NCBI GenBank assembly: GCA_016780345.1
Contig: JADHLZ010000015.1
Span: 1-33,044, forward strand
Direction: 5' to 3'
Length of the DNA stretch: 33,044 nucleotides
Origin: Flavobacteriaceae bacterium
GTDB lineage: Bacteria > Bacteroidota > Bacteroidia > Flavobacteriales > Flavobacteriaceae
Below, piece by piece: positions 13,792-23,234 of the stretch. The first letter of the stretch is position 1. Each line of letters starts with the position of its first letter. The notes under the pieces were generated by a model, which saw only the letters and a list, made by a program, of their open reading frames with translations, was not told the DNA's origin and did no database searches. A program made the translations under genes and the position numbers.

Positions 13792-15078
13792 TCAATTTAA
13801 TGACAAAATCATAGCCTCTCCTTTAAGCAAACACTCGTTGTATTCATCAATAGGTGTTGATTTTGCTGTGATAGCACTACCAACATGAAATGATAGATAA
13901 TCTAATTTAGAATTATATATTAGTGATCGGATAACTACATTAAAATCAAAGTTTTTTTCTGGATCTATAAAACCAACTGCTCCACTGTATAATCCACGTT
14001 TAGTAACTTCAAAATCATCTATAATTTTCATTGCTTTAATTTTTGGTGCGCCAGTCATACTTCCCATAGGAAATGTACTTGAAATAATTTTTCCAAAGTT
14101 TAAATTTTGATCAATTTCAGACTCTATAGTTGAAATCATTTGATGTACTTGTTCAAAAGGATAAACTTCACACAATTCTTTAACATTAACAGATCCAGGT
14201 TTTGAAAATCTTGACATATCGTTTCGAACCAAATCAACAATCATTATATTTTCTGATCTTTCTTTATTATTTAAACCTAGATTTATCATTAAGTTTTTAT
14301 CAACTTTAGAATCTTTATCTCTTCTTTCAGTGCCTTTAATTGGTTGAGATATCAATCTATTGTCTTTTTTCTTCAAATATCTTTCAGGAGATGAAGAAAT
14401 AAGAGATAATTCATTAAATTTAAACAATACACTCATTGGAGATTTTGAAATAGAATTTAAATTTCTGTAAACCTTAACAGGATCAATTTTTGCTTTTTCA
14501 CAGAACCATTCAAAACAGAAATTTACTTCATAAATATCTCCTAAAAAAATATGTTCTTTTATAGTATTAATTTTACTTAAATATTGTTCTTTAGATAAAG
14601 TTGATCTCATGACAGGAGTGTTAAAAGTCTTATTTTCACTCTCAACTGAAAAATCGTTAATATTAATCCAGTCTTTTTCAATCTCTTCTTTATTTATGTA
14701 AAGAGCTTCAATCTGGTCTTTTCTAATTATCCATATTTTTCTGGGTTGAAAAAAAAAGAGATTAGGTAAATTAAAATTATCTCGATTTTTACTTTTTAAG
14801 TTTTCAATTTCATTTTTTAGATCATAATTTAAATAACCAAATATCCAATCCTTAGTTTGATCTATATAATTATCAAGTTTTTTGATAGAATCAGAAACAG
14901 TAAAGGGTGTTTTAGAATGTACTTCGCAGGCACATATACATTCGTAATCTCCAAGTTTATTAATGTAATTATTAGAATTTAAAAAAATTGATGTTGAAAA
15001 AGAATCTGACCAACTTAGCAACTTCTGTTTAAAAAAGGATATATCATTTGATTTAAACTTTTTTGTGAATCGTTTCAA
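13792..15078 (-). CDS. pabB: aminodeoxychorismate synthase component I (para-aminobenzoate synthase)
   Basis: Makes 4-amino-4-deoxychorismate from chorismate for folate synthesis. The 428 residues show the chorismate-binding signatures GDIYEVNFCFEW (about 180-191), SSSPERYL, VDLVRNDMSR, MGSMTGAPKIKAM and GLYSGAVGFIDP. SQPIKGTERR at about 244-253 places a lysine (K248) where PabB enzymes have their catalytic lysine; TrpE usually reads PIAGT at this place, which favours PabB over anthranilate synthase. The start is TTG at 15078, since an in-frame TGA lies four codons upstream and the first ATG is far inside the domain. It is divergent from the arginine operon, with a 224-bp structured spacer between them, and is first in pabB-tilS-dsbD. 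Confidence 0.9.
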   Translation of the reverse strand: MKRFTKKFKSNDISFFKQKLLSWSDSFSTSIFLNSNNYINKLGDYECICACEVHSKTPFTVSDSIKKLDNYIDQTKDWIFGYLNYDLKNEIENLKSKNRDNFNLPNLFFFQPRKIWIIRKDQIEALYINKEEIEKDWININDFSVESENKTFNTPVMRSTLSKEQYLSKINTIKEHIFLGDIYEVNFCFEWFCEKAKIDPVKVYRNLNSISKSPMSVLFKFNELSLISSSPERYLKKKDNRLISQPIKGTERRDKDSKVDKNLMINLGLNNKERSENIMIVDLVRNDMSRFSKPGSVNVKELCEVYPFEQVHQMISTIESEIDQNLNFGKIISSTFPMGSMTGAPKIKAMKIIDDFEVTKRGLYSGAVGFIDPEKNFDFNVVIRSLIYNSKLDYLSFHVGSAITAKSTPIDEYNECLLKGEAMILSLN

Positions 15079-15192
15079 TTTTTTATTTCAAATTTAATTA
15101 ATTGTTTTTTATAAAATAAATCTTTGCTATTTGATTTTTTTTTATGAGTTTTGTATTAAATGAATTTTAAAAATAAAAATTTTAACACCTCA

Positions 15193-15200
15193 CTTACTTT
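15193..15200 (+). promoter_or_regulatory. possible -7 promoter element for the arginine operon
   Basis: TTACTTTG matches the Bacteroidota -7 consensus TAnnTTTG at seven of eight positions and is followed by C, as is common. There is no good TTTG -33 box 19-21 bp upstream, so support is modest. If used, transcription would begin inside the GC-rich island and give a leader of about 100 nt. Confidence 0.3.
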
Positions 15201-15232
15201 GCCCGCCCCTCGTCGCGCCCGCCCTTTTGGGT
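15201..15232 (+). other. GC-rich island with two GCCCGCCC copies; G-quadruplex motif on the minus strand
   Basis: In a region otherwise composed almost only of A and T, about 30 bases are mainly C and G. GCCCGCCC occurs at 15201-15208 and again at 15217-15224. The minus strand therefore has four G-runs in the order G3-C-G3, an 8-base spacer, then G4-C-G3, a near-canonical intramolecular quadruplex motif. GCCC-TTTT-GGGT (15221-15232) could form a short hairpin on the plus strand. The function is unknown. It lies between the divergent pabB and arginine operons. Confidence 0.6.
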
Positions 15233-15246
15233 ATTATTCTATTTAG

Positions 15247-15268
15247 GAAACTAGGTGAGTCCAGTTTC
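15247..15268 (+). other. RNA hairpin candidate in the leader of the arginine operon
   Basis: GAAACT-A-GG, loop TGAGT, CC-AGTTTC forms an 8-bp stem with one bulged A, 34 bp before the GTG start of the first arg gene. GTGAG in and next to its loop could pair with CTCAC at 15189-15193, a possible pseudoknot or long-range contact. There is no U-tract, so it is not an intrinsic terminator. It could be a structured leader or a protein site; no known family is recognised. Confidence 0.4.
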
Positions 15269-15302
15269 GTTTCGATTCAATCTTAATTAAATTTTAACCA
15301 TA

Positions 15303-15833
15303 GTGAAAATAACAGTCGCTTCTTTGAAGCATATTAAATATTGTGATATAATTTCAGAAACAATAAGTTCTTCTGCAAAAGTTAGAGGAACTGGAATTGC
15401 ATTAAGAACACCAGATTATATTAAGAAAAAAATTGAAAACAATAACGCTATAATCGCTACTGAAAATTCAGAATTTGCTGGTTTTTGTTATATTGAAATT
15501 TGGGGTCATGGAAAATACGTTGCTCATTCAGGATTAATTGTATCACCAAAATTTAGAGGAAAAGGACTAGCAAAAAAAATAAAAAAGTTAACCTTTCAAC
15601 ATTCTTTAAAAAAATATCCTGATTCAAAAATATTTGGAATTACCACTGGTCTTCCAGTAATGAAAATAAATTATGAATTAGGATACAAACCTGTAACATT
15701 CTCTGAACTAACTGATGATGAGGAGTTTTGGAAGGGATGTCAAACTTGCAAAAATTATGATATTCTAAACAGAACTAACAAACAAATGTGTTTATGTACA
15801 GGAATGTTATATGAACCAAAAAAAAATATATGA
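15303..15833 (+). CDS. GNAT-family acyltransferase heading the arginine operon (putative N-acylglutamate synthase)
   Basis: A 176-residue GCN5-related acyltransferase. The acyl-CoA pyrophosphate-binding motif is visible as SPKFRGKGLAKKI at about 81-93, and the usual second half contains INYELGYKPV. As first gene of an arginine operon that otherwise lacks argA and argJ, it is the natural candidate to acylate glutamate (acetyl or succinyl); this role is inferred from context. A C-terminal cysteine set, C146/C149 and C163/C165, looks like a small metal-binding or redox knuckle and is not part of the normal GNAT fold. The start is GTG at 15303. Its TGA overlaps the argG ATG as ATGA. Confidence 0.82.
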   Translation: MKITVASLKHIKYCDIISETISSSAKVRGTGIALRTPDYIKKKIENNNAIIATENSEFAGFCYIEIWGHGKYVAHSGLIVSPKFRGKGLAKKIKKLTFQHSLKKYPDSKIFGITTGLPVMKINYELGYKPVTFSELTDDEEFWKGCQTCKNYDILNRTNKQMCLCTGMLYEPKKNI

Positions 15834-17011
15834 AAAAAATAGTATTAGCTTATAGTGGAGGATTAGACACCTCATATTGTTTAAAAAAATTATCTAACGA
15901 AGGTAATGAAGTTCATGCAGTTAATATCAACACTGGAGGATTCACAATTATTGAAATTGAAGAAATTAAAGAAAAGGCACTTAAATTAGGTGCACACTCA
16001 TTTGTTTCAATTAATTCAGTTAAGTCTTATTATGAAAAAATTATTAAATTTTTAGTTTTTGGAAACGTACTTAGAAATAATACTTATCCTCTTTCTGTTA
16101 GCTCCGAAAGAACAATTCAAGCAATAGAAATTGTAAAATATGCTAATAAATATAATGCGTCTCATATTGCTCATGGAAGTACTGGCGCAGGAAATGACCA
16201 AGTTAGATTTGATTCAATATTTCAAATACTTGCACCTAATAAAAAAATCATAACACCAATTAGAGAATCATCTTTATCTAGACAAAATGAAATTGATTAT
16301 TTATTGAAATCTGGCATTAATATTTCTTGGGATAAAGCCAAATATTCAATAAATAAAGGGCTTTGGGGTACTAGTGTTGGAGGAGATGAAACTTTAACAT
16401 CAAATTTAAAACTTCCTGATGAAGCATTTCCTGGAAAGCTAGAAGAATTCAACAAAAAAGATATTGTTGTAACATTCAAAAAAGGGGAACTTATTGGATT
16501 AAATGGAGAATTTTATGATCCAGTAACATGTATAGAACTAATAAATAAAGAATGTGATAAATTTTGTATTGGAAGAGATATTCACGTTGGTGATAGTATT
16601 ATTGGGATTAAAGGAAGGGTTGGATTTCAAGCTGGTGGGCCTTTGATGATAATAAAATCTCATCATCTACTTGAAAAACATACATTAACAAAATGGCAAC
16701 AATACCAAAAAGATCAATTATCTAATTTTTATGGAATGCATCTTCATGAGGGTCAATATTTAGATCCTGTTTTAAGAGATATTGAATCTTTTCTTCAAAG
16801 TAGTCAAAAAAATGTTAGTGGTGAAGTTTACATAAGCCTATATCCATATAGATTTACTTTAAATGGAATAAAATCTGACAATGATTTGATGAATTCAGAA
16901 TTTGGTTCTTACGGTGAAGAAAATAAGAAATGGTCTTCTGAAGACGCTAAAGGTTTTATAAAAATTATTTCTAATCAAAATAAAATTTATCAATATGTCA
17001 ATAACAAATAA
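15830..17011 (+). CDS. argG: argininosuccinate synthase
   Basis: ATP-dependent joining of citrulline and aspartate, the penultimate step of arginine synthesis. The 393 residues start with the PP-loop AYSGGLDTS (about 7-15). They also contain the AHGSTGAGNDQVRF segment and the later GRVGFQAGGPLMIIKSHHLLEKHTL region in the C-terminal domain (quoted here as its recognisable core). The family is usually about 400 residues, so it is complete. It is the second gene of the operon. It overlaps the upstream acyltransferase by 4 bp and argC by 17 bp, which implies coupled translation. Confidence 0.96.
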   Translation: MKKIVLAYSGGLDTSYCLKKLSNEGNEVHAVNINTGGFTIIEIEEIKEKALKLGAHSFVSINSVKSYYEKIIKFLVFGNVLRNNTYPLSVSSERTIQAIEIVKYANKYNASHIAHGSTGAGNDQVRFDSIFQILAPNKKIITPIRESSLSRQNEIDYLLKSGINISWDKAKYSINKGLWGTSVGGDETLTSNLKLPDEAFPGKLEEFNKKDIVVTFKKGELIGLNGEFYDPVTCIELINKECDKFCIGRDIHVGDSIIGIKGRVGFQAGGPLMIIKSHHLLEKHTLTKWQQYQKDQLSNFYGMHLHEGQYLDPVLRDIESFLQSSQKNVSGEVYISLYPYRFTLNGIKSDNDLMNSEFGSYGEENKKWSSEDAKGFIKIISNQNKIYQYVNNK

Positions 17012-17984
17012 AATAAAAGTTGGAATTGTTGGAGGATCAGGATACACAGGTGGAGAATTAATAAGACTACTTGTTAATCACCCAAAAGTTGATATTAGCT
17101 TTGTAAATAGTAAAACCTACACAGGAAAAAAAGTTGTTGAGATTCATAAAGATTTAATTGGTGAAACAGAAATTAAATTTATTGGTGAAATCAAAGATTG
17201 TGATTTAATGTTTCTTTGTTTAGGACATAATAAATCAGAAGAATTTCTAAGAAAAACATCAATTAATACAAAAACTAAAATAATCGATTTAAGTCAGGAC
17301 TACAGATTAGAAAAATCATTTAAAGTAAAAGATGAAAAAAGAAATTTTGTATATGGACTTCCTGAACTTTATAAACAGAAAATAAAAACAGCGAAAAATA
17401 TTTCAAATCCTGGTTGTTTTGCAACTGCTATAGAAATTGGTTTAATACCCTCAGTTGAAAAAAAATATATTCATGGTGAAGTTCACACAAATGCAATAAC
17501 AGGAAGCACTGGAGCTGGAATTGTGCCTTCAAATACAACTCATTTTAGTTGGAGAAATAACAATGTGTCAAATTATAACGTATTCAATCACAGGCATTTA
17601 AACGAAATTTATCATCATTTAAATCAACTTTCAAATGAAATCAAAATTAATTTTATTCCAGTAAGAGGAAACTTTTCTAGAGGAATATTTTGTACAAGTT
17701 ATTTTAAGTCTAATGTTAAAATTGAAAAAATTAATGAACTGTATAGCCACTATTATAAAAATCATCCATTTGTACACATTTCTAAAAATGAAATTAGTTT
17801 AAAAGAAGTTATAAATACAAATAAATGTATTCTTCATTTAGCTAAAGTCAATGACAAAATATTAATTACATCAATTATTGATAATTTAATTAAAGGTGCA
17901 TCTGGACAAGCTATTCAAAATATGAATTTAATGTCTGGTTTTGAAGAAACGACCGGTCTTAACTTAAAATCATCAATTTTTTAA
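16995..17984 (+). CDS. argC: N-acyl-gamma-glutamyl-phosphate reductase
   Basis: NADPH reduction of N-acylglutamyl phosphate to the semialdehyde in the acylated ornithine branch. The 329 residues have the nucleotide-binding GIVGGSGYTGGEL at 10-22 and the catalytic cysteine about C141 in SNPGCFATA. Typical ArgC features SGTGAG-like TGSTGAG and PVRGNFSRGIF are also visible. Whether the acyl group is acetyl or succinyl cannot be told from this protein. The start at 16995 lies inside the end of argG (17-bp overlap); it gives a short lead before the Rossmann motif and is the only reasonable ATG. Confidence 0.95.
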   Translation: MSITNKIKVGIVGGSGYTGGELIRLLVNHPKVDISFVNSKTYTGKKVVEIHKDLIGETEIKFIGEIKDCDLMFLCLGHNKSEEFLRKTSINTKTKIIDLSQDYRLEKSFKVKDEKRNFVYGLPELYKQKIKTAKNISNPGCFATAIEIGLIPSVEKKYIHGEVHTNAITGSTGAGIVPSNTTHFSWRNNNVSNYNVFNHRHLNEIYHHLNQLSNEIKINFIPVRGNFSRGIFCTSYFKSNVKIEKINELYSHYYKNHPFVHISKNEISLKEVINTNKCILHLAKVNDKILITSIIDNLIKGASGQAIQNMNLMSGFEETTGLNLKSSIF

Positions 17985-17997
17985 AAAATAATAAATA

Positions 17998-18048
17998 ATG
18001 AAATTTTCATCCTCTTTTGAAAAAATTAATCAAATATCATCAAAATGA
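17998..18048 (+). CDS. possible 16-codon mini-ORF coupled to argD
   Basis: In the only real gap of the arginine operon, ATG at 17998 opens a 16-codon frame (MKFSSSFEKINQISSK). It ends in TGA overlapping the argD ATG as ATGA, the same overlap used by real gene pairs in this operon. It may be a tiny translated leader that delivers ribosomes to argD, or chance. No homologue is recognised and the composition (many Ser, Lys, Ile) is uninformative. Confidence 0.2.
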   Translation: MKFSSSFEKINQISSK

Positions 18049-19172
18049 ATTTATTTAATGTATATCCACTTTACGAAATGACACCATCACATGCCAACAT
18101 GTGTTATGTATTTGACAAAAAAGGAGAAAAATACCTAGATTTATATGGAGGGCATGCTGTTATTTCAATTGGACACAATCATCCTAATTATATTAAATCT
18201 CTAACAAATCAATTAAATAAAATTGGATTTTATTCAAATTATATAATTAACGATTTACAAAAAGAAGTAGCCAATGAAATAATACAACAATCTAATTGTC
18301 ATAATTATAAATTATTTATGACAAATAGTGGAGCTGAATCCAATGAGAATGCTTTACAAGTTGCTTCATTTTATAACAAAAGAGAAAAAATAATTGCATT
18401 TAAAAATTCATTCCATGGAAGAAGTAACGCTGCTCTTAGTATAACTGATAATTATAAAATTAAATCAGAAATAAATAAAAAAATTAATGTAATACACATA
18501 GAATTTAATGACAAAGCAAACTTTGATAAAGAAATTTCAAAGGGAGATGTTAGTTCAGTAATTTTTGAGTCAATTCAAGGAGTTGGAGGATTGGATCAAC
18601 CAAGTACAGATTTTATTAAACACATCTCAAAAAAATGTAAAGAATATGATACATGTTTAATTGCTGATGAAGTTCAATCTGGATTTGGAAGAACAGGAGA
18701 TTTTTTTGCATTTCAAAATCATGATATAAATCCTGATATTATATGTATGGCCAAAGGAATGGGAAATGGTTTTCCTGTTGGTGGAATTCTGATTAAAGAT
18801 CATATAAAACCAAGTTTTGGCATGCTAGGAACAACATTCGGAGGAAATCATCTTGCATGTTCAGCAGTATTATCAGTGTTAAAAACCATAAAAGAAGAAT
18901 CTTTACTTTCAAATGCTAAGGAAATGGAAATTTATTTTAGAGAAAAAATTTCAAAAATCAAATCAGTAATTAAAATTAAAGGAAGAGGACTAATGCTGGG
19001 TATTGAATTTGATTTTGAAACTGCGCAGTTAAGAAAAAATCTAATTTTTAATCACAAAATATTCACTGGTGGAAGTGCTAACAAAAATCTTCTTAGAATT
19101 TTACCACCACTTAATATTAACAAGTCTCATATTGATATGTTATTTAACGCTTTAAAGGAGGAACTAAAATGA
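18045..19172 (+). CDS. argD: N-acylornithine aminotransferase (class III, PLP-dependent)
   Basis: Transfers an amino group to N-acylglutamate semialdehyde to form N-acylornithine. The 375 residues are typical of ArgD. Signatures are DLYGGHAVISIGHNHP at about 32-47, TNSGAESNENALQ at about 93-105, FHGRSNAALS, ADEVQSGFGRTG with Asp about 208, and the PLP lysine K237 in CMAKGMGNGFPVGG. There is some possibility of a dual role as succinyldiaminopimelate aminotransferase, as in other bacteria. It overlaps argF' by 4 bp. A 60-bp gap separates it from argC, the only break of that size in the operon. Confidence 0.94.
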   Translation: MNLFNVYPLYEMTPSHANMCYVFDKKGEKYLDLYGGHAVISIGHNHPNYIKSLTNQLNKIGFYSNYIINDLQKEVANEIIQQSNCHNYKLFMTNSGAESNENALQVASFYNKREKIIAFKNSFHGRSNAALSITDNYKIKSEINKKINVIHIEFNDKANFDKEISKGDVSSVIFESIQGVGGLDQPSTDFIKHISKKCKEYDTCLIADEVQSGFGRTGDFFAFQNHDINPDIICMAKGMGNGFPVGGILIKDHIKPSFGMLGTTFGGNHLACSAVLSVLKTIKEESLLSNAKEMEIYFREKISKIKSVIKIKGRGLMLGIEFDFETAQLRKNLIFNHKIFTGGSANKNLLRILPPLNINKSHIDMLFNALKEELK

Positions 19173-20119
19173 AAAAATTTATAAAATGTAACGACTTAAT
19201 TGATTTTGAATTATGCGTTAATCAAATTATTGATTCAAAAAAAAACCCAACAAAAGAAGTTTACAATAAAGAAGGGAAAGTTCTTGGTTTGATTTTTTTC
19301 AATCCTAGTTTAAGAACAAGATTGAGTGTTCAAAAAGCTGCAATAAATTTGGGAATGAGAATAATATGTATGAATATTAAAGATGAAGGATGGCAACTTG
19401 AATTTGACGATAATGTAATTATGAATGGAGATAAAGCTGAACATGTAAGAGAAGCTGCAAAAGTTATTTCAACCTATTGTGATATTATTGGTATAAGGTC
19501 ATTTGCAAATTTATCTAATAAAAAGTCAGATTTAGAAGATAACGTAATTAATTCTTTTGTGAAACACTCAACAGTTCCTATTATTAATTTAGAAAGTGCT
19601 ATAAGTCACCCTCTGCAATCTTTAGCAGATGCAATAACTATTAAAGAGATGAGTAAAGTAAAAAAACCCAAAATAGTATTATCGTGGGCGCCACATCCTA
19701 AACCCCTTCCCCACGCTGTAGCTAATTCATTTATTGAAATGTGTACACTGTGCAATTTTGATTTGACTATTGCTAATCCATTAGGATACGATTTAGATAA
19801 AAAAATTACAAAGGGATATGAAATTATTCATCAACAGAATGATGCTTTTAAAAATGCAGATTTTATTTATGCAAAAAACTGGTCATCTTTTGATGATTAT
19901 GGAAAAGTAAATCTATGCGACAACTCTTGGACTATTGATGAAAATAAAATGAGTTTAACTAATGAAGCTTATTTTATGCATTGTCTGCCAGTAAGAAGAA
20001 ATATGATTGTTACTGATTCGGTATTAGAGTCAAACTGTAATATTACTATAGAACAAGCAAGTAATAGAGTTCATGGAACTCAATTTATACTTAATGAATT
20101 ATTAAAAAATGAAAACTAA
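19169..20119 (+). CDS. argF': N-acylornithine carbamoyltransferase (N-succinyl- or N-acetyl-ornithine)
   Basis: Carbamoylates N-acylornithine to N-acylcitrulline, replacing the ordinary ornithine carbamoyltransferase. The 316 residues have the carbamoyl-phosphate motif FFNPSLRTR at 43-51. WQLEFDDN and MNGDKAEHVREAA (about 85-97) follow, with HPLQSLADA in the middle and HCLPVRRN near the C-terminus. The WQLEF and MNGDKAEH region marks the acyl-specific subfamily rather than classic ArgF. Residue 90 is Ala near the position where the family literature places Glu in acetyl-specific and Pro in succinyl-specific enzymes. This leans towards succinylornithine but needs alignment. It overlaps argD by 4 bp and argB by 11 bp. 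Confidence 0.9.
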   Translation: MKKFIKCNDLIDFELCVNQIIDSKKNPTKEVYNKEGKVLGLIFFNPSLRTRLSVQKAAINLGMRIICMNIKDEGWQLEFDDNVIMNGDKAEHVREAAKVISTYCDIIGIRSFANLSNKKSDLEDNVINSFVKHSTVPIINLESAISHPLQSLADAITIKEMSKVKKPKIVLSWAPHPKPLPHAVANSFIEMCTLCNFDLTIANPLGYDLDKKITKGYEIIHQQNDAFKNADFIYAKNWSSFDDYGKVNLCDNSWTIDENKMSLTNEAYFMHCLPVRRNMIVTDSVLESNCNITIEQASNRVHGTQFILNELLKNEN

Positions 20120-20885
20120 ATTAACGATCGTAAAAGTTGGCGGAGTTATTATAAATGACAATTTATTATTTGAAGAATTTATGAAAAGTTTTTCAAAAAT
20201 TAATGAAAATAAAATAATTGTTCATGGGGGGGGTATTATTGCATCAAATTACATGATAAGACTAGGAATAATACCCAAAATGGTTAATGGGAGAAGAATA
20301 ACAGATTCTGAAACACTAGATGTTGCTATTATGACTTATGCAGGACTGGTTAATAAAAAAATTGTTTCAAATCTACAGAAATTAAATTGTAATTCAATTG
20401 GCTTATCAGGAGCTGATGGTAATTTAATCAAATCAAAAATCAGAAAAGTAAACAAAATAAATTATGGTTTTGTAGGGGATATTGAAAAGATTAATGATCA
20501 ATTTTTATTAAACCTACTAAACTCAAATTTAACACCCACAATTTGTTCTATAACTCATGATAAAAATGGGCAACTTTTAAATACTAATGCTGATACTATA
20601 GCATCTGATACAGCTATAGCGATGTCTAAACACTACAATGTTACATTAAAATATTGCTTTGATAAATCAGGATTGTTAATGGATCAAAACACTAACACTA
20701 GTATTAAAAAAAACTTAACCAAAAAAGAATTTAAAAAACTTGTTGAAAATAAAATAATTAGTGGTGGAATGATTCCTAAATTAGAAAACTGTTTTAAAGC
20801 ATTAGAAAACGGAGTGAATAACATTTATGTAGGTAATATAGATATTATCAATACAATTGACAATTGTACAAAAATTACACTCTAA
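20109..20885 (+). CDS. argB: N-acylglutamate kinase
   Basis: Phosphorylates N-acetyl- or N-succinyl-glutamate in the second step of the pathway. The 258 residues match the short, hexamer-less type (as in E. coli), lacking the roughly 30-residue N-terminal helix associated with arginine-inhibited enzymes. Allosteric inhibition here is therefore unlikely (inference). VKVGGVIINDN and IVHGGGIIASNYM at the N-terminus bind phosphates. NGRRITDSETLD and ISGGMIPKLENCFKAL are the usual later motifs. A run of eight G bases (20226-20233) codes for the HGGG motif. The ATG start overlaps argF' by 11 bp; the stop TAA shares one base with the next ATG. Confidence 0.94.
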   Translation: MKTKLTIVKVGGVIINDNLLFEEFMKSFSKINENKIIVHGGGIIASNYMIRLGIIPKMVNGRRITDSETLDVAIMTYAGLVNKKIVSNLQKLNCNSIGLSGADGNLIKSKIRKVNKINYGFVGDIEKINDQFLLNLLNSNLTPTICSITHDKNGQLLNTNADTIASDTAIAMSKHYNVTLKYCFDKSGLLMDQNTNTSIKKNLTKKEFKKLVENKIISGGMIPKLENCFKALENGVNNIYVGNIDIINTIDNCTKITL

Positions 20886-21940
20886 TGAAAGAATTAAAAT
20901 TAAAATCTATTGAACTATTAAAAAAGCTGATTCAAATCGAGTCATTTTCAACTAAAGAGTATAATACTTCTAAACTAATTCAAAATTGGTTTAAAGAAAA
21001 CAATATAATTTCGCATAGATATAAAAATAACATTTATGCTTTTAATAAATATCATGATTCTAAAAAACCGTACATATTGTTAAACTCTCATCATGATACT
21101 GTTAGACCAAATTCTGGATATACTTTAAATCCCTTTGAAAGCATAATTAAAGACAAAAAACTATTTGGACTGGGAAGTAATGATGCAGGTGGAGCATTAG
21201 TTTCTTTAATGGTTGTTTTTTTACATTATTTCCATAGAAATGACTTAAAATACAACTTAATTATATTAACTTCAGCCGAAGAAGAATCATCGGGAGATAA
21301 TGGAATTACATCAATAATTCCCAAATTACCAAAAATAGATTTTGCAATTGTTGGTGAACCTACATTAATGAAGATGGCTATAGCCGAGAGAGGATTAATT
21401 GTTTATGATTTAATAGTTAATGGTACAGGCTCACATGCAGCTCACAAAAATAACGATAACCCAATTATTAAATCAATTGATGTATTAAAATGGATAGATG
21501 AATTAAGTTTTGATAAAGAATCAGCTTTTTTAGGAAAAGTTAAGGCTACAGTTACTCAAATAAATGCAGGAGATCAACACAATGTAGTTCCTTCAAATCT
21601 TACTATGGTTATGGATGTGAGGGTTAATGATTGTTATACAAACAAAGAGATTAATGATTACTTAGTTAAAAACTCTCCTTGTTTTATAAAAGCAAGATCT
21701 CTTAATTTGAATTCATCTTCAATTGATTCTAATCATAAAATAGTTTTAGCAGCAAATAAGTTAAACATTGAAAAATATGGATCTCCTACTCTTTCGGATC
21801 AATCAAAAATGTCCTTTCCCTCTGTTAAGATAGGTCCTGGAGATTCAAAAAGATCACATATAGCAAATGAATTTATATACATTAAAGAAATTGAGGAAGC
21901 CATACCAAAATATATAAATCTTTTAAACGAATTACTTTAA
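20885..21940 (+). CDS. argE: M20-family deacylase, N-acylcitrulline/N-acylornithine deacylase-like
   Basis: A zinc-dependent M20 peptidase-family enzyme that removes the acyl group, most likely from N-acylcitrulline because the carbamoyltransferase of the operon is acyl-specific. Metal-site segments are LNSHHDTV, GSNDAGGALVS with the bridging Asp, TSAEEESSG with the catalytic and ligand Glu, and VGEPT. The dimerisation domain has GSHAAHKNNDNPI. I place the start at ATG 20885, overlapping the argB stop by one base (TAATG), giving 351 residues. A TTG at 20864 would add seven residues inside argB and is less likely. It is followed by argH after 10 bp. Confidence 0.88.
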   Translation: MKELKLKSIELLKKLIQIESFSTKEYNTSKLIQNWFKENNIISHRYKNNIYAFNKYHDSKKPYILLNSHHDTVRPNSGYTLNPFESIIKDKKLFGLGSNDAGGALVSLMVVFLHYFHRNDLKYNLIILTSAEEESSGDNGITSIIPKLPKIDFAIVGEPTLMKMAIAERGLIVYDLIVNGTGSHAAHKNNDNPIIKSIDVLKWIDELSFDKESAFLGKVKATVTQINAGDQHNVVPSNLTMVMDVRVNDCYTNKEINDYLVKNSPCFIKARSLNLNSSSIDSNHKIVLAANKLNIEKYGSPTLSDQSKMSFPSVKIGPGDSKRSHIANEFIYIKEIEEAIPKYINLLNELL

Positions 21941-21950
21941 AAAAACTATT

Positions 21951-23234
21951 ATGAAACTTTGGAATATAGAAAACAATCTTAATAAAAAAATTGAAAAATT
22001 TACAGTAGGAAAGGATAGAATTTATGATTTACACATCGCCAAATTTGATGTTATTGCATCAATAGCACATGCTAAGATGTTAAATAAAATTGGAATTCTA
22101 ACAAATGATGAATCTGAAAAAATTTTAAATAAACTAAATGAGATATACCAAGATATAACTTTAGGAAACTTTAATATTGAGGATGAATTTGAGGATGTTC
22201 ACTCAAAAATAGAATCAATTTTAATTAAACATTTAGGTTTAATTGGAAAAAAAATACACACAGGAAGATCTAGAAATGATCAGGTTTTAGTAGCAACTCA
22301 ACTTTTTCTAAAAAATGAAATTATAAAAATAAAAGAATTGTCAGTTAAATTATTTGATACACTATTGTTTTTAGCTAAAAAAAATAAAAACAAATTACTT
22401 CCTGGGTATACTCATCTTCAAGTAGCAATGCCTTCATCATTCGGCTTATGGTTTTCATCATATGCTGAAAACTTAATCGATGATATTTTATATTTGAACA
22501 CTTCCTTTCAAATTAATAATCAGAACCCACTTGGAAGCGGAGCTGGATTTGGAAGTTCATTTAAAATTGATAGAGATTTCACTACTAAAGAATTAAATTT
22601 TGATGATATAAAATATAATGTTGTATCAGCACAAATGAATAGAGGGAAAGTAGAAAAATCTGTTATTATTGCTATAAATTCAATTGCTGGTACTTTAGCT
22701 AGATTATCATCAGATGTATGTTTTTACATGAGTCAAGAACTTAATTTTATTTCTTTTCCTGAAGAAGTTACCACAGGTTCCAGTATAATGCCTCATAAAA
22801 AAAATCCAGATGTTTTTGAGCTTATTAGAGCTAAATGCAACTCATTACAATCACTTGTAAATGAATTTAATATTCTTTCAATAAATCTAACTAGTGGTTA
22901 TCATAGAGATATGCAATTGTACAAGGGGAAAACTATTGAAGCAATAATTGAAATAAAAGATTGTTTAGAAATTCTAGATTTTACAATAAAAAAAATTAAA
23001 ATTAGAGATAACATTTTAGACGATAGTAAATACGACTATGTTTTTTCAGTTGAAAACTTGAACGAATTAGTTAAAAAGGGTTATTCATTTAGAGATGCAT
23101 ATATGCAAATTTCAGAAAATATTAAGAATAATAGTTTTATTCCTAAACGAGATTTTAAACATGTTTTAAAGGGAAGTATAGGTAATTTATGCTTAGATAA
23201 AATTAAAGCAAAAATGTATAAAGCTATTAATTAA
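21951..23234 (+). CDS. argH: argininosuccinate lyase
   Basis: Splits argininosuccinate into arginine and fumarate, the last step of the pathway. The 427 residues include EDVHSKIE, TGRSRNDQV at about 103-111, YTHLQVAMPSS, and the superfamily signature GSSIMPHKKNPD at about 275-286 on the flexible catalytic loop. The C-terminal segment is a little short compared with the usual 450-460 residues, but all active-site regions are there. It is the last gene of the arg operon; its 3' end overlaps convergent lpdA by 4 bp, with no obvious terminator hairpin in between. Confidence 0.95.
   Translation: MKLWNIENNLNKKIEKFTVGKDRIYDLHIAKFDVIASIAHAKMLNKIGILTNDESEKILNKLNEIYQDITLGNFNIEDEFEDVHSKIESILIKHLGLIGKKIHTGRSRNDQVLVATQLFLKNEIIKIKELSVKLFDTLLFLAKKNKNKLLPGYTHLQVAMPSSFGLWFSSYAENLIDDILYLNTSFQINNQNPLGSGAGFGSSFKIDRDFTTKELNFDDIKYNVVSAQMNRGKVEKSVIIAINSIAGTLARLSSDVCFYMSQELNFISFPEEVTTGSSIMPHKKNPDVFELIRAKCNSLQSLVNEFNILSINLTSGYHRDMQLYKGKTIEAIIEIKDCLEILDFTIKKIKIRDNILDDSKYDYVFSVENLNELVKKGYSFRDAYMQISENIKNNSFIPKRDFKHVLKGSIGNLCLDKIKAKMYKAIN

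Follow-up and report, generated by a model that had tools for sequence, protein, structure and literature searches.

In the Salmonella speF leader, the short ORF orf34 carries two consecutive Arg codons; pausing at low arginine changes the folding of the leader, with consequences for Rho termination and for RNase G, both of which act on the folding outcome (PMC6386406). The strong codon bias of attenuator leaders has been discussed (PMC1183508). Closer to the organism considered here, transcriptomics of F. psychrophilum reportedly gave hints of attenuation by leader peptides upstream of amino-acid operons; the conserved elements listed in the relevant section include those before pheA and hisG and others, none of them before arg (PMC9723704). 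Among small structured RNAs, the GUCCY-hairpin motif (Weinberg 2010) is listed for Bacteroidetes and Proteobacteria (PMC2864571). In the passages of two large structured-RNA discovery papers reached by term search, the arg leader described below is not mentioned.

The window, the whole 33 kb stretch of DNA analyzed here, has a GC content of 28.1% and comes from an incomplete (78%) assembly. Its arg operon begins with a GNAT acetyltransferase gene, judged by operon position to be a probable N-acetylglutamate synthase gene, and diverges from a pabB-like gene across a short spacer (Table 1). An earlier note on this DNA had singled out about 30 bases of nearly pure G/C in the spacer, and the island is real: no other 32-nt stretch of the window is as GC-rich (25/32, at 15201). 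The two plus-strand copies of GCCCGCCC that had been reported are both present, in different frames (CCC-GCC vs GCC-CGC-CC). The island was taken for a non-coding element; it is instead coding, not a non-coding aptamer. It holds the arginine codons of a leader ORF that is unannotated and had been missed, and owes its composition to the Arg, Pro and Ala codons of that ORF. GC islands within AT-rich genomes can thus be leader-peptide codons rather than aptamers, which calls for caution.

Table 1. Coordinates of the arg leader and neighboring features in the window.
Feature	Position	Strand	Basis or remark
Divergent spacer	15079-15302		Between minus-strand chorismate-binding gene (pabB-like) and plus-strand arg operon
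Promoter-like pair TTTG-N19-GAGTTTTG	15123-15153	+	Sequence, inferred; resembles flavobacterial -33/-7 signal (TAnnTTTG, one mismatch)
Leader ORF, 28 codons, 87 nt, peptide MNFKNKNFNTSLTLPAPRRARPFGYYSI	15160-15246 (ATG 15160, TAG 15244-15246)	+	Translation; homologous Arg-rich ORFs in the same place in congeners and family
GC-rich island, inside leader ORF	15193-15236	+	Includes codons for PAPRRARPFG
Presumed regulatory Arg codons CGT CGC (GCC) CGC	15211-15222	+	Codon usage
hp1, GCCC-UUUU-GGGU	15221-15232	+	5' arm overlaps Arg codons
hp2, GAAACU-(A)-GG-UGAGU-CC-AGUUUC, conserved core AGGUGNGUCC	15247-15268	+	Covariation
G-poor linker from hp2 to operon start codon, candidate Rho-loading stretch	15269-15302	+	Family base composition
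GNAT acetyltransferase gene, first gene of the arg operon, GTG start	15303-15833	+	Pfam Acetyltransf_1
argG-argC-argD-argF-argB-argE-argH	15830-23234	+	Pfam domains

Ordinary Shine-Dalgarno rules do not hold in Bacteroidota. The promoter-like pair ends 6 nt before the leader ATG in the window, and transcription would start near 15158, 2 nt ahead of the ATG. Across the family, TAnnTTTG ends 2-10 nt before an in-frame start in 59/198 leaders, against 4.0 expected, and at exactly 7 nt in 40 of them; in F. psychrophilum this motif sits at -12 to -5 (PMC9723704), so the leader mRNAs would be nearly leaderless. The ORF lies between this putative promoter and the first structural gene, and several of its codons specify arginine, the product of the operon, as expected of a ribosome-mediated attenuator.

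The Arg codons of the leader stand out against those of the window's genes. The 27 main ORFs of the window (n = 282 Arg codons) use AGA 224, AGG 27, CGA 17, CGT 10, CGG 3 and CGC 1 times; CGY (CGT or CGC) thus makes up 11/282 Arg codons in the window genes vs 3/3 in the leader. Family leader peptides contain a mean of 4.2 Arg, concentrated toward the end and in rare CGY codons; of 476 Arg codons that precede the last two, 376 are CGY. An open Arg frame of 20 codons or more is seen in 113/114 dereplicated leaders, as against 40 and 31 for the other two frames. A 90%-complete congener has tRNA-Arg anticodons TCT, CCT, TCG and ACG, of which tRNA-Arg(ACG) reads the leader CGY codons; the window's own 78%-complete assembly gave tRNA-Arg TCT and TCG only.

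Thirteen congeners keep the locus, all with the Arg-rich ORF in frame, and the C-terminal third of their peptides reads, exactly or nearly, R-R-A-R-P-F-G-Y-x-S-I-stop; only L015, the most divergent of them, differs, its peptide ending RRVRPVCV. In most homologous peptides the ending is (R)RRP, and the UAA stop then falls inside the GUAA tetraloop of hp1. RRP-stop is the commonest ending outside the window's genus, being found in 108/119 among the pattern matches listed; the scan pattern forces CGC-CCG-T and so partly imposes RRP, while the stop and the upstream Arg codons remain free evidence. In 98 dereplicated peptides of this type, only the last 3-4 residues are strongly conserved, which fits codon sensing. 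Five leader peptides searched against Pfam and NCBIfam HMMs gave no match even at E up to 10.

In L065, L079, L105 and relatives, an extra small inverted repeat (GAGCA..TGCTC or GGGC..TCCC), possibly a pause hairpin, lies inside the ORF upstream of the Arg codons. Two loci of another family (L026 and L028) have Arg-rich leader peptides ending YRRRPVRV and RRRRPVRR, followed in the same position by a different second hairpin, AATGGT-TACGT-ACCATT or AATGAT-TACGT-ATCATT, with one compensated pair.

Two hairpins accompany the ORF. In most of the family hp1 has the form CGCCC-GUAA-GGGUG and varies little; L024 and L127, in which the peptide lacks the Pro-stop, carry the compensatory CGCAC-GUUU-GUGCG, which suggests that hp1 is kept as an RNA hairpin for its own sake. 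The second hairpin, hp2, is the 8-bp hairpin that the earlier note had placed right after the island: in the window it has 8 pairs (6+2, with a bulged A), a dG of about -7.6 kcal/mol, and starts directly after the stop codon. In general, its stem has about six pairs and leads, through a bulge of 1-4 nt that is A or UA in most cases, to GG-UGNGU-CC. As judged by comparison of leader sequences, hp2 is the best-supported RNA element of the region. In 96 matches (94 leaders and 2 weak extra ones) aligned to the model, double compensatory changes occur at 6/6 outer-stem pairs and 99.3% of cells are paired, in an alignment fitted to the structure; the covariation score is 0.343 vs 0.129 ± 0.008 for shuffles, with 0/500 reaching it. 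Independent swapping of 3' arms among loci gives 5.79/6 hp2 pairs for the true arms vs 4.91 ± 0.06. RNAalifold on a MAFFT alignment returned just 6 pairs because the bulge shifts the register, and the covariance model was used instead.

While the stem of hp2 varies, its core AGGUGNGUCC is nearly invariant, GG/CC being invariant in the covariation set; the sole compensated inner-pair change seen, GG/CC to GA/UC, is in L285 (AGATGTGTTC). The distance between hp1 and hp2 is 11-15 nt in nearly all loci. Folding energy is not unusual against shuffles (z about 0), so the structural evidence rests on comparison, not stability. When the hp2 loop was compared with every other leader segment, no k-mer partner was enriched and most were depleted. 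Among the fetched loci, the core occurs with a pairing stem only at the arg operon; other AGGTGWGTCC sites in these loci lack the stem, and hp2 was rejected as a general factor site. The core may resemble the complement of the 16S 3' end. At gathering score, Rfam 15 finds tRNA alone in the window, and a permissive search of 15050-15350 finds nothing meaningful.

The region was scanned for with R1, a covariance model of hp1 and hp2. Of 249 genomes sampled from the same family, R1 matches 169 at E up to 1, with roughly a single match in each. Among 79 loci fetched in this way, 75 have the GNAT gene directly downstream and 2 a different GNAT-like gene followed by argG, so that 77/79 point to the arg operon; the other 2 are weak matches without the hp2 core. 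A scan of 84,980 GTDB genomes with the pattern CGCCCGTNNGGGTR-N13-22-AGGTGNGTCC gives at least 119 matches: among the 119 listed, 115 are followed at a distance of 48-105 nt by the GNAT gene that opens the arg operon, 2 precede a different GNAT gene and argG, and 2 are cut by contig ends. All 80 titles listed for these matches belong to Flavobacteriaceae, Flavobacteriales or unclassified Bacteroidetes. In the range G036 to G103, the GNAT gene is likewise missing from 14/14 tested family genomes without a motif match. In genus g146 (L283-L289 except L285; large-genome Flavobacteriaceae), the GNAT gene is kept and the leader motif is absent; another arginine control is expected there. Four loci (L067, L104, L154 and L225) keep the arg leader before a different GNAT-like protein, followed by argG; the window's GNAT as query does not find this protein, and these lineages have possibly replaced their N-acetylglutamate synthase.

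Two other attributions of the element were tried. As a pabB unit it was rejected: pabB adjoins only 12/109 loci tested, mainly in the window's own genus, and the element therefore belongs to the arg operon. As a dispersed repeat it was rejected since it is single-copy in its own genome. Neither of the outcomes named as fatal to the original suspicion, lack of conservation in sister genomes or dispersal unrelated to arg genes, has occurred; the block is, as proposed, under selection, and it is conserved in sister genomes.

Comparison among genomes brings out the ORF, its Arg codons, both hairpins, their spacing and the link to the arg operon. A short leader ORF closing with end-product codons that overlap a conserved hairpin has the anatomy of a ribosome-mediated amino-acid sensor. 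The region is the leader of the arg operon and probably acts as a ribosome-mediated arginine sensor, or attenuator; the earlier surmise of an arginine-responsive leader at this place is very probably right, and the element goes with the arg operon rather than with pabB. The absence of argR, likewise noted earlier, extends to 60/60 relatives, with the same search positive in 8/14 control genomes, Bacteroides included; the literature searched contained no account of how arginine synthesis is controlled in these ArgR-less relatives. The same genome (L305, contig C18) has a textbook histidine attenuator: within about 150 nt upstream of hisG, a leader peptide, MKLTHTFHHHYNILKRVI, is followed by a strong terminator, CCGTTTG...CAAACGGG, with a T-run, and similar leaders are found in congeners and several other families. 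This lineage thus uses attenuation logic. Counted against an arginine sensor are the lack of an intrinsic terminator and of an antiterminator, the GNAT gene without the motif in genus g146, and the incompleteness of the window's assembly.

Translation of the leader, stalling, the response to arginine, the direction of control and its readout would follow from this anatomy in the following way. Transcription would start a few bases ahead of the 28-codon ORF, and a ribosome would translate the leader peptide. When Arg-tRNA is short, the ribosome would stall on the CGY codons directly preceding and overlapping hp1; sitting on the 5' arm of hp1, it would keep the transcript occupied, and hp1 could not form. 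When arginine is plentiful, the ribosome would finish and leave, hp1 would form beside hp2, and expression of the operon would be reduced. The readout would be something other than an intrinsic terminator, most likely the action of Rho on the G-poor sequence that follows hp2, or else processing of the RNA.

An intrinsic terminator after hp2 was sought and rejected: at least 5 T in the following 8 nt are found at just 14/193 loci, leaving no U-tract at 179/193, and the mean of 2.4 T of 8 is below the 3.5 of the downstream sequence. The leaders revealed neither a competing antiterminator nor a conserved alternative pairing. The 42 nt after hp2 have family means of C 0.151 and G 0.058, vs C 0.170 and G 0.155 in control sequence upstream of other genes, and the rho gene is present in the window's own genome; Rho-dependent termination is therefore plausible, as in the Arg-codon leader of Salmonella speF, where RNA processing is described too (PMC6386406). 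In our view the most likely readout is termination by Rho in this G-poor sequence or processing of the RNA at hp1 and hp2. If Arg-codon sensing holds, our judgement, which is not a computed value, favors Rho, at somewhat less than an even chance; it gives RNA processing or stability a clearly smaller share, a factor binding hp2 slightly less than that, and an unrecognised terminator the smallest.

Against a plain attenuator, the core of hp2 is more conserved than a stem needs and may bind something. A tentative elaboration, to which we give limited credence, is a two-part sensor in which the ribosome reads the CGY codons while the AGGUGNGUCC core of hp2 serves as a binding site that turns ribosome position into expression; the ligand could be arginine, a protein of the arginine pathway, or a termination or processing factor. 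If true, this would amount to repressor-free arginine control in a large bacterial family.

That hp1 or hp2 is the intrinsic terminator of a classical attenuator is unlikely. A scan of the window called hp1 terminator-like, and T is moderately frequent just behind hp1 (mean 3.8 of 8); few T follow hp2, however, and since the 5' arm of hp1 overlaps the Arg codons, with the stop in the loop in most relatives, a coupled ribosome would block hp1. The real his terminator of the same genome, moreover, looks quite different from either hairpin.

Proline before the stop is typical of arrest peptides. The common RRP-stop ending could accordingly point to nascent-chain arrest, in which the C-terminal Arg-Arg-Pro would stall the terminating ribosome together with free L-arginine, as tryptophan does with TnaC, rather than with uncharged tRNA as the signal. 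Yet the Pro-stop is lost in the window's genus (RRARPFGYYSI), in L018 and L113 (RRPL...) and in L024 and L127 (RRTFVRA), while the Arg codons and hp1 stay; no residues further up the peptide show the strong conservation expected of a TnaC-like arrest peptide, and the CCC arm of hp1 accounts for the Pro. We rate arrest a shade lower than the classical terminator.

Improbable, and a little more so than arrest, is an arginine aptamer or protein-binding hairpin, in which hp2, with hp1, would bind arginine or an arginine-pathway protein and the ORF would be secondary. The near invariance of the core despite a variable stem, its restriction with a pairing stem to the arg operon and the narrow hp1-hp2 spacing are what such an element would predict, but hp2, at 22 nt, would make a small amino-acid aptamer, Rfam offers no match, and the Arg-codon ORF and its codon choice are left unexplained.

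The regulatory G-quadruplex and CTCAC pseudoknot proposed in the earlier note have next to no probability: the four minus-strand G-runs exist, but their loops of 1, 8 and 1 nt miss the canonical pattern (loops up to 7 nt), four runs occur in only 3/14 congeners (window included) and a canonical match in 0/199 family leaders, and the good pairing of CTCAC with the hp2 loop, possible in the window, where the single-sequence fold even prefers 8 bp of CUCACUUA/UAGGUGAG, is not conserved, as none of the other 13 congeners has CTCAC and the motif is depleted upstream of hp2 family-wide (8 loci vs 18.7 expected).

The arginine sensor that we favor relies on a known principle; the arg leader adds to it a design with no intrinsic terminator and an arg-specific hairpin, matching no Rfam, Pfam or NCBIfam entry. 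It is a concrete candidate answer for arginine control in the majority of the Flavobacteriaceae sampled, bacteria that matter for carbon turnover in the sea. It also suggests that the place taken by a repressor in many studied bacteria can be filled by a leader peptide. With a conserved arg-specific hairpin in place of an intrinsic terminator, it offers a good system for studying the readout of ribosome stalling in Bacteroidota.

ArgR/ARG-box control has the same target genes, and its regulator is absent from all the relatives searched. The GUCCY-hairpin resembles hp2 in being small, carrying GUCC in its name and occurring partly in Bacteroidetes, whereas in hp2 GUCC is followed mainly by a purine; the resemblance is no more than a lead (PMC2864571). 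The TnaC type (PMC8429421) is alike in its short peptide and, for most relatives, the Pro before the stop, but in the arg leader the Pro-stop is dispensable in several genera and the upstream residues are not strongly conserved. The his, trp and leu attenuators likewise have a leader peptide rich in the product amino acid; in the arg leader, no intrinsic terminator or antiterminator is seen, and a second, arg-specific conserved hairpin is present instead. The closest working analogue is speF orf34 (PMC6386406): both are short ORFs with consecutive Arg codons, and Rho may act in the arg leader, where a G-poor stretch follows hp2 and the genome has rho. No sequence relation is expected, and while orf34 governs ornithine decarboxylase, the arg leader has the AGGUGNGUCC hairpin and precedes a whole arg operon.
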